A DNA stretch of 64,000 nucleotides, taken from Chlorobaculum tepidum TLS. Its GTDB lineage: Bacteria > Bacteroidota > Chlorobiia > Chlorobiales > Chlorobiaceae. Below, one piece after another: positions 18,011 through 33,202 of this stretch. Under the pieces are notes generated by a model, which was not told the DNA's origin, made no database searches, and worked only from the letters and a program-made list of their open reading frames with translations. The stretch lies in NCBI RefSeq assembly GCF_000006985.1, contig NC_002932.3, positions 457,501-521,500 of the forward strand. The letters run 5' to 3'. The position numbers and the translations under genes are program-made. Positions within the stretch are counted from its first letter, which is position 1. Each line of letters starts with the position of its first letter.

Positions 18011-21579
<3,569 letters not shown>

Positions 21580-29342: not shown

Positions 29343-30064
29343 TTATGAGCCCTGTAACCTCAGCGGGAGTTCGAGGCCGTTCGCTTCGAGCAGCTCGCGG
29401 TTTGAGAGGATTTCTTTTGCCGGGCCGTCGGCGACGATTTTTCCACTGTTCATAATGCAGACCCGCTCGCAGGTTTCCCAGATGAAGTCGAGGTCGTGGG
29501 AGACGGTGAGTTTCGTTGTCGCCAGGTTGTTGAGCAGGCCGATGAGCATCCGGCGGTTGCGGGGGTCGAGGTCGGAGGTGGGTTCATCCATCACGAGCAG
29601 CTTCGGCTGCATGACGAGCACCGCTGCCAGTGCGGCGAAGCGTTTCTGGCCTTGCGACAGGTGCGCGGGCGCTTTGTCGCGCAGCTCCCAGAGGCCAAAC
29701 AGCCGCAGCAAACGCTCGGCTTCGGCGTGGCTCGCGGCCTCCTCCATGCCGAGATTCGACGGGCCGAACAGCATGTCGTCATAGACTCTTGCCATGAAGA
29801 GCTGGTCGTCCGGGTTCTGGAACACCAGCCCGACCATTTTCCGGATCTGCTCGATTGCTTTTTTGTCCACCTTCAGCTTCCCGATTCTTACCGACCCCGA
29901 CTGCGGCAGGTGCCAGCCGTTGAGGTGATTGACGAGGGTCGATTTGCCCGCCCGTTCGATCCGGCGATGCCGAGCGATTCGCCCTTGCCGACGTAGAGGT
30001 CGATGCCGTCGAGCGCTTTGGTGCCGTCGGGGTAGGTGAAGGCGAGCTGTTCGATGTCGATCAA
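29343..30064 (-). pseudogene. cbiO: Cobalt/nickel ECF transporter ATPase CbiO, frameshifted in Walker A
   Basis: From a TTG at 30064 (AGGAGA upstream) the frame reads IDIEQLAFTYPDGTKALDGI...GIAGSNG and is lost within the Walker A motif at about 29950. The next frame continues AGKSTLVNHLNGW, MVGLVFQNPDDQLF, LSQGQKRFAALAAVL, LLVMDEPTSDLD and SHDLDFIWETC. One base added to a C/G run restores GSNGAGKST and makes 241 codons exactly. It would energise the CbiMQ transporter next to it. Either inactive or a sequencing error; its partner gene is independently damaged. Confidence 0.85.
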
Positions 30065-30090: not shown

Positions 30091-30414
30091 TCAGAAAAGG
30101 TGGCGGACAAGGGCGAAGAGCGCCGCTGCGCCTGCGATGGCGAACAGATCGCCGGGCATCAGTGCGATGGGCGGGTGCGAGTCGAGAGCTGAGCGGAAGC
30201 CGCGCGCGCTCATCGCCATGTAGCCTGTGCCGGGGATCGTGAAGTTTATCATCTGTGCTGCGAAAACGAACGCGCCCATGACCCCCATGAGCACGGTTTT
30301 CGAACCGTCGGATTCCGAGGGGATTTTTCTTGCCGACAGGCCGATCATTCCTGCGCTGACCGCCCAGAACGCACCGCCAACAACTGGCGAAAGCAGAGCA
30401 TCTGACATGTGCAT
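30091..30414 (-). pseudogene. CbiM-CbiQ deletion fusion, remnant of a nickel/cobalt ECF transporter
   Basis: 107 residues in one frame. Residues 1-63 (MHMSDALLSPVVGGAFWAVS ... AAQMINFTIPGTG) are the N-terminus of CbiM, including the metal-binding His-2 region. Residues 64-107 (YMAMSARGFRSALDSH ... FALVRHLF) match the C-terminus of the CbiQ permease, with its ARGFR coupling motif. The remaining two thirds of CbiM, any CbiN, and the front of CbiQ are missing, as if removed by one in-frame deletion. The product cannot form a normal transporter. The CbiQ match is by motif and is less certain than the CbiM match. Confidence 0.65.
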
Positions 30415-30436: not shown

Positions 30437-31231
30437 TTAGAATCGCATGGTCACGCCTGCGAGCAGCGTGGTGTCGGTTTCGGCGTCATTCAGGCCGCCT
30501 TTGATGCCGATGTCGAGATCGGTATTGTCGTTGACGGCGTAGATCAGGCCGCCGAGAATCCAGGCCGGATCGGTATCGGAATCCTTGTCGGAATTGGTTT
30601 CGATGCCGATGTCGCCCACGGCCCGGAGCTTGTCGGTCACGTTCAGCTCGGTGGCCATCGAGGCGTGCCAGATGTTTTTTCTCGATGATTCACTGATTTC
30701 GTCGAGCTTGTAGGCGTTACGGCTGTAACCGAGGTTGACGTGGAAGGTGGCCAGTTTGGCTTCGCGCGTGGCGATGAGCGTGACGTCGCCCGAAACCTTG
30801 CCGGTGCCGAAGCCTTTGTTTTCATCACCCGTCGGGATGGTGAGACCGGGTTTGATGGCGAGGTTGAAGCCGCTGTCCGGGAGTTCGTAAAAGCGCCATT
30901 TGATTTGCAGGGCGAGGTCACCAATGCCGTTTTCATCAGCCACCTTCAAGCCATTCTCTTTTACCGTGTCCCACTCCCAGGGCAGGCCAACGACCAGATC
31001 AATGTTGTCTGTCAGGCCGTAGCTGAAGGTGGCCGAAATAGCACCGCCGGTCTCCTTGCACGATACTCCCGCTTCGGTTTCCTTGTCGCTGGTGGATTCA
31101 AAGCCGATTTCGATCTGGCCGTGGCCTGCGCCCTGGGTGCCGGTGTCGTCGGTTACGAGCGGCATGGCGGCGAAGAGCGGCGTCGAAGAGAGCATGAGCG
31201 CCGAGACGAGAAGGGTGGCTTTTTTCTGCAT
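30437..31231 (-). CDS. Outer-membrane protein, phenol-degradation MetA-like (PF13557) family
   Basis: 264 residues with a signal peptide (MQKKATLLVSALMLSSTPLFA), then alternating beta strands ending in the aromatic DTTLLAGVTMRF, as expected of an outer-membrane barrel. ATG 31231 is chosen because it gives the signal peptide; upstream in-frame codons run through the operator. It lies between the cbi genes and nikR and directly behind a strong dyad, so a role in nickel or cobalt passage across the outer membrane is inferred from context only. Confidence 0.75.
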   Translation of the reverse strand: MQKKATLLVSALMLSSTPLFAAMPLVTDDTGTQGAGHGQIEIGFESTSDKETEAGVSCKETGGAISATFSYGLTDNIDLVVGLPWEWDTVKENGLKVADENGIGDLALQIKWRFYELPDSGFNLAIKPGLTIPTGDENKGFGTGKVSGDVTLIATREAKLATFHVNLGYSRNAYKLDEISESSRKNIWHASMATELNVTDKLRAVGDIGIETNSDKDSDTDPAWILGGLIYAVNDNTDLDIGIKGGLNDAETDTTLLAGVTMRF

Positions 31232-31250: not shown

Positions 31251-31285
31251 GGTGATAGCATGAAAATAAAATTAGTGCTATCGCC
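31251..31285. promoter_or_regulatory. Candidate NikR operator upstream of the metal-locus outer-membrane gene
   Basis: GGTGATAGCA (31251-31260), 15 bp, TGCTATCGCC (31276-31285). The arms are inverted repeats with one mismatch (GGTGATAGCA versus GGCGATAGCA). Arm size and spacing resemble the E. coli NikR site GTATGA-N16-TCATAC, with a different arm sequence. It lies 20 bp before the start codon of the outer-membrane gene and 56 bp from the end of nikR. Regulation by the adjacent NikR is inference. Confidence 0.6.
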
Positions 31286-31341
31286 GGGCAACAGGTAACG
31301 GTGTTGAATCGTTCTGCAGAGAACTTTTCAACGCTGCCTTG

Positions 31342-31746
31342 TCAATCAGCGGAGGAGAGGGAGAGGTCGAGATGCTTCACGCCGACCAGCACCTTGAGGG
31401 CGCTGGAGAGCTTTTCGATCTCCGGGGCGTTGCCCTTGACGGCGATCACTTCGAGGCAGTTCTCGTGGTCGAGGTGCACGTGCTGGGTCGAGATGATGAG
31501 GTCGTGGAAGTCGTGCTGGATGTCGATCAGGCGGTTGACCAGATCGCGCTTGTGGTGGTCATAGGTCATCACGATGGCCCCGGCCACCAACCCGCCTTCG
31601 GCGGTGGTTTTGCGGAGCAGCTCCTCGCGGATGAGGTCGCGGAGCGCCTCCGACCGGCTCTGGTAGCCCTGGGCCTTGATGTGCCGGTCGAAAGACTCGA
31701 TCAGTTTCCTTTCAAGCGAAATGCCGAAACGGTAGAGGTCGCTCAC
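31342..31746 (-). CDS. nikR: Nickel-responsive transcriptional regulator NikR
   Basis: 134 residues. An N-terminal ribbon-helix-helix DNA-binding domain (RFGISLERKLIESFDRHIKA, SRSEALRDLIREEL) is followed by an ACT-like metal-binding domain with the nickel ligands in HDFHDLIISTQHVHLDHENC (His, His-x-His, Cys). Tetrameric repressor that binds DNA when nickel is present. Ends upstream of the candidate operator and starts 4 bp after nfnB ends, so it may share a transcript with nfnAB. Confidence 0.93.
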   Translation of the reverse strand: MSDLYRFGISLERKLIESFDRHIKAQGYQSRSEALRDLIREELLRKTTAEGGLVAGAIVMTYDHHKRDLVNRLIDIQHDFHDLIISTQHVHLDHENCLEVIAVKGNAPEIEKLSSALKVLVGVKHLDLSLSSAD

Positions 31747-31750
31747 GTGC

Positions 31751-33202
31751 TTACCACTCGTTGAAGTTCTTGGCCGTGCCGCCGAGCTTTTCGTTGATGG
31801 CAGCCGCCGCTTTGCGTCCCGCGCCCATCGCGAGAATCACGGTCGCGCCGCCCGTGACGATGTCGCCACCGGCGTAAACGTTCTCCTTGGAGGTCTGCAT
31901 GGTGTTGACGTCAACGACGATGGTCTCGCGTTTGCTGACCTCGATGTCGGGTGTCGTCTGGTGGATGAGCGGGTTGGGGCCGTTGCCGATGGAGATGATC
32001 GCCATGTCGATGGGCAGGATGTACTCCGAGCCTTCGACTGGTACCGGGCGGCGGCGTCCCGAATCGTCGGGTTCACCCAGCTCCATTTTCTGGCACTTCG
32101 CGCCGGTGAGCCACGCCTTTTCATCGCCGACGAATTCAAGCGGTGTGGTGAGCAGCAGGAACTCGATGCCCTCCTCCTTGGCGTTGTGAATCTCCTCCTC
32201 GCGGGCGGGCATCTCTTTTTCGGAGCGGCGATAGACGATGTAGGCGTGCTCCGCTCCGAGCCGTTTGGCCGTGCGTACGGCGTCCATCGCGGTGTTGCCG
32301 CCGCCGAAGACCGCGACGTTTTTACCCTTGCAGTCGAACACCGGCGTGTCGCTGCTCTTCAGGAAGTCGTAGGCCTTCATGAGGTTCACCCTGGTGAGGA
32401 ACTCGTTGGCCGCGAGTACGCCGACGAGGTTCTCGCCCGGAATGCCCATGAACCAGGGCAGACCCGCGCCCACGCCGATGAAAACCGCGTCGAAACCTTC
32501 CTCTTCCATCAGCTCGTCGATGGTGATCGTGCGTCCGACCACCACGTCGGTGCGGAACTCGATGCCCATGCGGCGCAGGCCGTCAAGCTCTTCGCGGACG
32601 ATCTCCTTCGGCAGACGGAATTCCGGAATGCCGTACATCAAAACACCGCCGAGTTCGTGCAGCGCCTCGAACACCACCACCTTGTGGCCGTACTGGGCCA
32701 GGTCATTGGCGCAGCTCAGGCCGGCCGGACCACTGCCGACAACGGCAACCTTTTTGCCGGTCGGAGGCGCGATTTTCGGATCGATCTTCTGGCCGCTGGT
32801 GCGTTCGTAATCGCCCACGAAGCGTTCGAGGTTACCGATGGCCACCGGCTCGTGCTTCTTGCCGATGACGCACACCTTCTCGCACTGGTCTTCCTGCGGG
32901 CAGACGCGGCCGCAAATTGACGGCAGTACGTTGTCCTCCTTGATCTTTCTGACCGCGCCCATGAAGTCACCCTCGGCGATCAGTTTGATGAACTGGTCGA
33001 TCTTGATGTTGACCGGACACCCTGCGATGCAGACCGGGTCCTTGCACTGGATACAGCGCAGGGCTTCCTGCTGTGCCTGTTCCGGGGTTAGGCCAAGGTT
33101 GACCTCCTTGAAGTTACCGACGCGCTCCACTGGATCCTGAGCGGGCATCTTCTGACGGGGAATGGCCATACGTTCCTTGGTGGTGATAGTACGAGCGTCC
33201 AT
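31751..33202 (-). CDS. nfnB: NfnB/GltA-type NADPH-dependent flavoprotein with Fe-S clusters
   Basis: 483 residues. The N-terminal Fe-S region has CIQCKDPVCIAGCPVNI (about residue 50) and CGRVCPQEDQCEKVC (about 97). The first FAD motif is GSGPAGLSCANDLAQYG (about 157), the NAD(P) motif FGGGNTAMDAVRTAKRLGA (about 300), and the C-terminal FAD motif YAGGDIVTGGATVILAMG. It forms a complex with the product of the next upstream gene, either as NfnAB transhydrogenase (linking NADH, NADPH and ferredoxin by bifurcation) or as the related sulfide dehydrogenase SudAB. A glutamate synthase small-subunit annotation is also possible, but no large subunit is present. Confidence 0.82.
   Translation of the reverse strand: MDARTITTKERMAIPRQKMPAQDPVERVGNFKEVNLGLTPEQAQQEALRCIQCKDPVCIAGCPVNIKIDQFIKLIAEGDFMGAVRKIKEDNVLPSICGRVCPQEDQCEKVCVIGKKHEPVAIGNLERFVGDYERTSGQKIDPKIAPPTGKKVAVVGSGPAGLSCANDLAQYGHKVVVFEALHELGGVLMYGIPEFRLPKEIVREELDGLRRMGIEFRTDVVVGRTITIDELMEEEGFDAVFIGVGAGLPWFMGIPGENLVGVLAANEFLTRVNLMKAYDFLKSSDTPVFDCKGKNVAVFGGGNTAMDAVRTAKRLGAEHAYIVYRRSEKEMPAREEEIHNAKEEGIEFLLLTTPLEFVGDEKAWLTGAKCQKMELGEPDDSGRRRPVPVEGSEYILPIDMAIISIGNGPNPLIHQTTPDIEVSKRETIVVDVNTMQTSKENVYAGGDIVTGGATVILAMGAGRKAAAAINEKLGGTAKNFNEW

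Follow-up and report, generated by a model that had tools for sequence, protein, structure and literature searches.

On the minus strand of the 64,000-nucleotide stretch of Chlorobaculum tepidum TLS DNA analysed here (the window), nikR (31342..31746) encodes a 134-aa protein with a ribbon-helix-helix domain (PF01402) and a NikR_C domain (PF08753, 1.4e-31). The product scores above the cut-off of the NCBIfam NikR equivalog, and its His/His/His/Cys metal-ligand stretch aligns with solved NikR proteins. Directly upstream lies a conserved neighbour, an nfnB-like gene (31751..33202). On the downstream side are a gene for a 264-aa outer-membrane barrel of the PF13557/COG4313 type (30437..31231, ATG at 31231; Pfam 3.2e-28), a nikM'-'nikQ remnant (30091..30414) that matches only CbiM positions 1–61 of 205, and nikO (29343..30064), whose reading frame, by tblastn, shifts at the Walker A codons (~29951). 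Between nikR and the barrel gene lies a predicted NikR-type operator (31251..31285), where the minus strand reads GGC GATAGCAC-N13-ATGCTATC ACC. The conserved gene order is nfnB-nikR-site-barrel-nikM-nikQ-nikO, with NikM comprising CbiM and PDGLE domains.

Comparison of NikR loci taken from 80 contigs revealed variation on this arrangement. Some Chlorobiaceae loci carry nikM and the site with no adjacent barrel, so the unit does not invariably include one; at loci lacking the barrel, the site precedes nikM (L033 and L037 by position; L025 and L030 with weaker sites). Several nikR loci devoid of importer genes have no site nearby, and L015–L017 possess an importer of another CbiM type yet keep both site and barrel. 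An Elusimicrobia contig (L053:5568-6287) displays the same succession of nikR, a short barrel-like protein (beginning AHPLTTDDIGT) and nikMQO; the barrel-like protein gave no Pfam match.

The dyad, GGTGATAGCA-N15-TGCTATCGCC, was found at 31251-31285 in the intergenic region separating nikR from the barrel gene, with the arms and spacing given in the original prediction. Its 7-bp arms are perfect, 10-bp arms contain one mismatch, and 19 bp separate its end from the barrel ATG (31231). The core, TAGCAC-N13-ATGCTA inside 27–29 bp, has the form of NikR operators, which are inverted repeats of ~27–28 bp with an N13/14 spacer. A search of the whole genome (one contig, 2,154,946 bp) for GATAGCA-N13..17-TGCTATC returned this single occurrence. 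The prediction had also called the dyad strong; it is real, but its strength is unremarkable in the window, which holds 6 dyads with 10-bp arms, at most one mismatch and N15, against 2.4 ± 1.5 in shuffles. Bare dyad quality is not clearly above chance, and with 6 equal dyads in the window, strength by itself was rejected as evidence. The five further dyads of equal quality are at window positions 21180, 41804, 48678, 58571 and 61952. The dyad at 31251-31285 stands above chance because it is conserved: a cross-clade matrix trained on 18 sites, all outside the Chlorobaculum-like clade, scored the window site at 31.5, the next-best window locus at 6.1 and shuffled sequence (640 kb) at 15.0 at most.

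A sequence model built from a 27-site alignment that left out the window site was then run over 41 genomes. The motif is present in all NikR-carrying Chlorobiaceae genomes searched (22/22, E ≤ 1.2e-4) and usually occupies the gap that separates nikR from the barrel gene. In a 23rd genome (G014), the contig breaks off 139 bp from the site and nikR is missing, while two genomes without NikR (G010, only 77% complete, and G024) have no site below E 0.09. Chlorobaculum-like loci share GATAGCAC-N13-ATGCTATC between nikR and the barrel gene; across 11 of them the arms are 99% conserved and the flanks 58–67%. In Chlorobium loci the motif becomes GTRRCAC-N13-GTGYYAC (e.g., GTAACACAAATATTATTTTTGTGTTAC in L015), and in more distant Chlorobiaceae relatives it reads GTAACAC-N13-GTGTTAC. 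Similar sites adjoin nikR in other phyla, on a Chitinivibrionales contig (L048, before cbiM) and a Bacteroidetes contig (L072, at nikR). Within the C. tepidum genome, the sequence model yielded no further NikR site at E ≤ 1 among the 150 of 283 candidates scored. Tandem arrangements occur at two loci: at L009 a separate NikR-type site (5468 and 6441) accompanies each of two tandem barrels, and at L010 a single barrel is preceded by two tandem sites (5460 and 5504). A good NikR-like site (22 bits) at L142:2786-2811 sits between convergent genes, remote from nickel genes, on a contig that is possibly foreign or misbinned. Weak extra matches in relatives, at G008:C123:7785 (between convergent genes) and G011:C1:867712 (16.7 bits), were left out of the regulon.

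These sites resemble published NikR signals. The deltaproteobacterial NikR regulon uses GTGTTAC-N13/14-GTAACAC, plus a reversed form, GTAACAC-N13-GTGTTAC, reported for the nik genes of Desulfotalea psychrophila (PMC545781). That regulon shares the length and spacing of the Chlorobiaceae sites, likewise precedes nikMQO genes, and its reversed signal is identical to the distant Chlorobiaceae sites; it differs in that the Chlorobaculum arms read GATAGCAC/ATGCTATC, that the barrel is the first gene here, and that the operator embeds a fixed −35/−10 promoter. The arm sequence, thought to be new, is therefore better described as a diverged variant, since distant relatives carry the reversed signal already published. 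The predicted NikR site on the barrel promoter has strong support: it is conserved, its geometry fits, it is linked to both nikR and nikM, and its relatives are identical to a published NikR signal. The dyad is very likely a NikR operator, and from its sequence and setting we infer with considerable confidence that NikR binds it and, when loaded with nickel, represses the barrel promoter.

NikR control of outer-membrane genes has precedents. According to titles cited in PMC11247825, Helicobacter NikR represses the outer-membrane protein genes FrpB4 and FecA3; the likeness to the repression predicted here lies in the NikR-controlled outer-membrane gene, and the difference in the products, which are large TonB-dependent receptors as opposed to a 264-aa COG4313-type barrel. 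In Caldithrix, a NikR-like motif was proposed ahead of TonB receptors and nikMNQO (PMC5317091), which likewise places an outer-membrane protein and a Nik importer under predicted NikR control outside epsilonproteobacteria; unlike in Chlorobiaceae, it concerns a TonB receptor and a single genome. The view that such control is rarely described outside epsilonproteobacteria is fair, with Caldithrix as a precedent. Chlorobi NikR sites may also have been mentioned earlier, in the 2006 nickel/cobalt transporter paper by Rodionov and colleagues or in RegPrecise.

The operator overlaps a promoter. A −35-like TTGCCC (31286..31291, minus strand) stands 17 bp before a −10-like TATTTT (31263..31268, minus strand) located within the operator spacer, where TTATTTT hardly varies among 27 sites. 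A TTG precedes the spacer TATTTT, or a sequence close to it, at a distance of exactly 17 bp in 39 of 43 distinct sites. Both hexamers are weak by consensus and fall below the threshold of a generic promoter scanner; their fixed position speaks for a promoter inside the operator and hence for repression by occlusion. The predicted start site is at ~31256, ~25 nt upstream of the ATG at 31231. A barrel start at the TTG at 31291 would fall upstream of the promoter. Autoregulation of nikR via the dyad is unsupported, the site being downstream of nikR and serving the barrel promoter. In the proposed mechanism, the NikR operator would straddle the TTGCCC-N17-TATTTT promoter of an operon that in relatives comprises barrel-nikM-nikQ-nikO. 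With sufficient nickel, Ni-NikR would bind both half-sites of the 27–29 bp site and block RNA polymerase, whereas under scarce nickel the barrel operon would be expressed. Repression of the barrel promoter by Ni-NikR is likely on these sequence features; with a conserved palindrome on the barrel promoter beside nikR, channel and importer in green sulfur bacteria are very probably off when nickel is plentiful.

The importer itself is broken in C. tepidum. Relative to intact operons, a ~1.45 kb deletion fused nikM codons 1–64 in frame to the nikQ C-terminus, with the junction at ~30219-30223 and ~5 bp of microhomology, and tblastn finds nikO residues 1–38 and 39–240 in different frames. A sequencing error could account for the frameshift, but hardly for the deletion. 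M, Q and O of the NikMQO importer are not intact in C. tepidum and are intact in relatives. In addition, comparison with the close relative G002 shows a deletion of ~1.4 kb (G000:C1:750671-752071; L160) that has removed hupS together with the 5' portion of hupL. No NiCoT or HupE importer was found in the C. tepidum genome, and the one CbiQ it encodes belongs to the cobalt locus. It is doubtful that this strain retains full nickel uptake. With importer and uptake hydrogenase both broken, there is a sizeable chance, somewhat short of even, that the site is a relic in C. tepidum and that NikR–barrel control no longer serves nickel supply; the nikM-nikQ deletion, the nikO frameshift, the hydrogenase deletion and the lack of a detected substitute all point that way. 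Set against it are a second, intact NiFe hydrogenase-like gene at 1793340, a cobalt importer that could pass nickel, and a barrel dN/dS against relatives of 0.20–0.23, close to the 0.16–0.19 between relatives with intact operons. The corresponding value for NikR is 0.08–0.17. Since NikR and the barrel still look constrained, either decay set in recently or these components remain useful. Deletion and frameshift have destroyed the importer, leaving NikR, operator and barrel.

The barrel gene product matches PF13557 at 99.8 bits (cut-off 22). A structure model made from a 25-sequence alignment has a mean pLDDT of 84, with residues 1–22, where the lumen-occluding N-terminal segment of COG4313/PF13557 channels would be expected, below 50, and contains 13 DSSP strand segments, two of which read as one kinked strand, consistent with a 12-stranded fold. 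Its fold matches are FapF (5o65) and the COG4313 channel 4rl8 (TM 0.66–0.72); a PDB sequence search returned nothing credible. A TonB-dependent receptor, with plug and 22-strand barrel, was ruled out by the length of 264 aa and by PF13557 being the only family above cut-off. The substrates of COG4313 channels are believed to be hydrophobic, and hydrophilic molecules were considered an improbable cargo for Pput2725 (PMC4493636). Pput2725 (4rl8), SphA and TcpY share Pfam family and 12-stranded barrel fold with the present protein; they are linked to hydrophobic substrates (PMC4493636), and the Chlorobiaceae barrels to nickel/cobalt importers. Our literature search found no paper linking nickel or cobalt to COG4313 or Phenol_MetA_deg.

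The C. tepidum genome encodes three PF13557 barrels. One paralogue (G000:C1:408457-409023; L102, L150) lies between a cobalamin riboswitch and cbiM-cbiN-cbiQ, and such a riboswitch is upstream in 10/10 cobalt loci examined, C. tepidum's included. In the family genomes searched, every CbiM-family gene follows a PF13557 barrel (33/33), whereas two CbiM genes found in other families have no preceding PF13557 barrel. Phylogenetically, the cobalt barrels group as a single clade nested among the nickel-linked ones. The third barrel (L147:2323-3126), 61% identical to the nickel-linked one, has no metal importer beside it; a peroxiredoxin gene is adjacent on the opposite strand.

Gene context is good evidence for a metal role of the barrel. 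Nickel entry through the outer membrane, as originally proposed, is plausible on this context and no more than that, because the barrel is a COG4313 channel, and the member of that family examined so far is believed to transport hydrophobic compounds. The barrel is an outer-membrane channel that most likely lets in nickel, free or in a small complex, to supply NikMQO in the inner membrane; the odds for nickel as the substrate are even or slightly better. A minority possibility, still to be taken seriously, is that the operator is NikR's and the barrel a COG4313 channel, either of general use or for hydrophobic molecules, that happened to end up in the operon. The structural relatives 4rl8 and FapF, the hydrophobic substrates assigned to the family in the literature and the paralogue beside a peroxiredoxin gene fit that account, but it sits poorly with a barrel before all 33 CbiM-family genes of the family genomes searched, with control by NikR in one case and by the cobalamin riboswitch in the other, both metal-linked but unrelated, and with retention of the barrel when the importer type changes. 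Far less probable is that the dyad is an RNA hairpin or the operator of another regulator: NikR binding is predicted from sequence and a weak terminator-like stem overlaps the dyad edge, but the dyad accompanies nikR and nikM in different genomes and phyla, related sites agree with a published NikR signal, the promoter inside it leaves most of it untranscribed, and no Rfam family matched there.

Taken as a whole, the original prediction of a NikR-controlled barrel proved largely right; it overlooked that the importer is broken and that cobalt offers a parallel. More broadly, there is a close to even chance that the small COG4313 barrels of green sulfur bacteria are dedicated non-TonB entry channels for nickel and cobalt, one copy controlled by NikR and one by a cobalamin riboswitch, each with its own ECF-type importer. 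Little is known about how nickel and cobalt get through the outer membrane when no TonB receptor is involved. In the present case, one bacterial family holds two paralogous barrels tied to two metals by unrelated controls, a repressor site and a riboswitch. This provides a directly testable case of metal-linked outer-membrane channels, which would extend COG4313 to a new class of substrates, and in C. tepidum a metal regulon caught mid-decay, in which operator, sensor and channel outlast a damaged importer and uptake hydrogenase.
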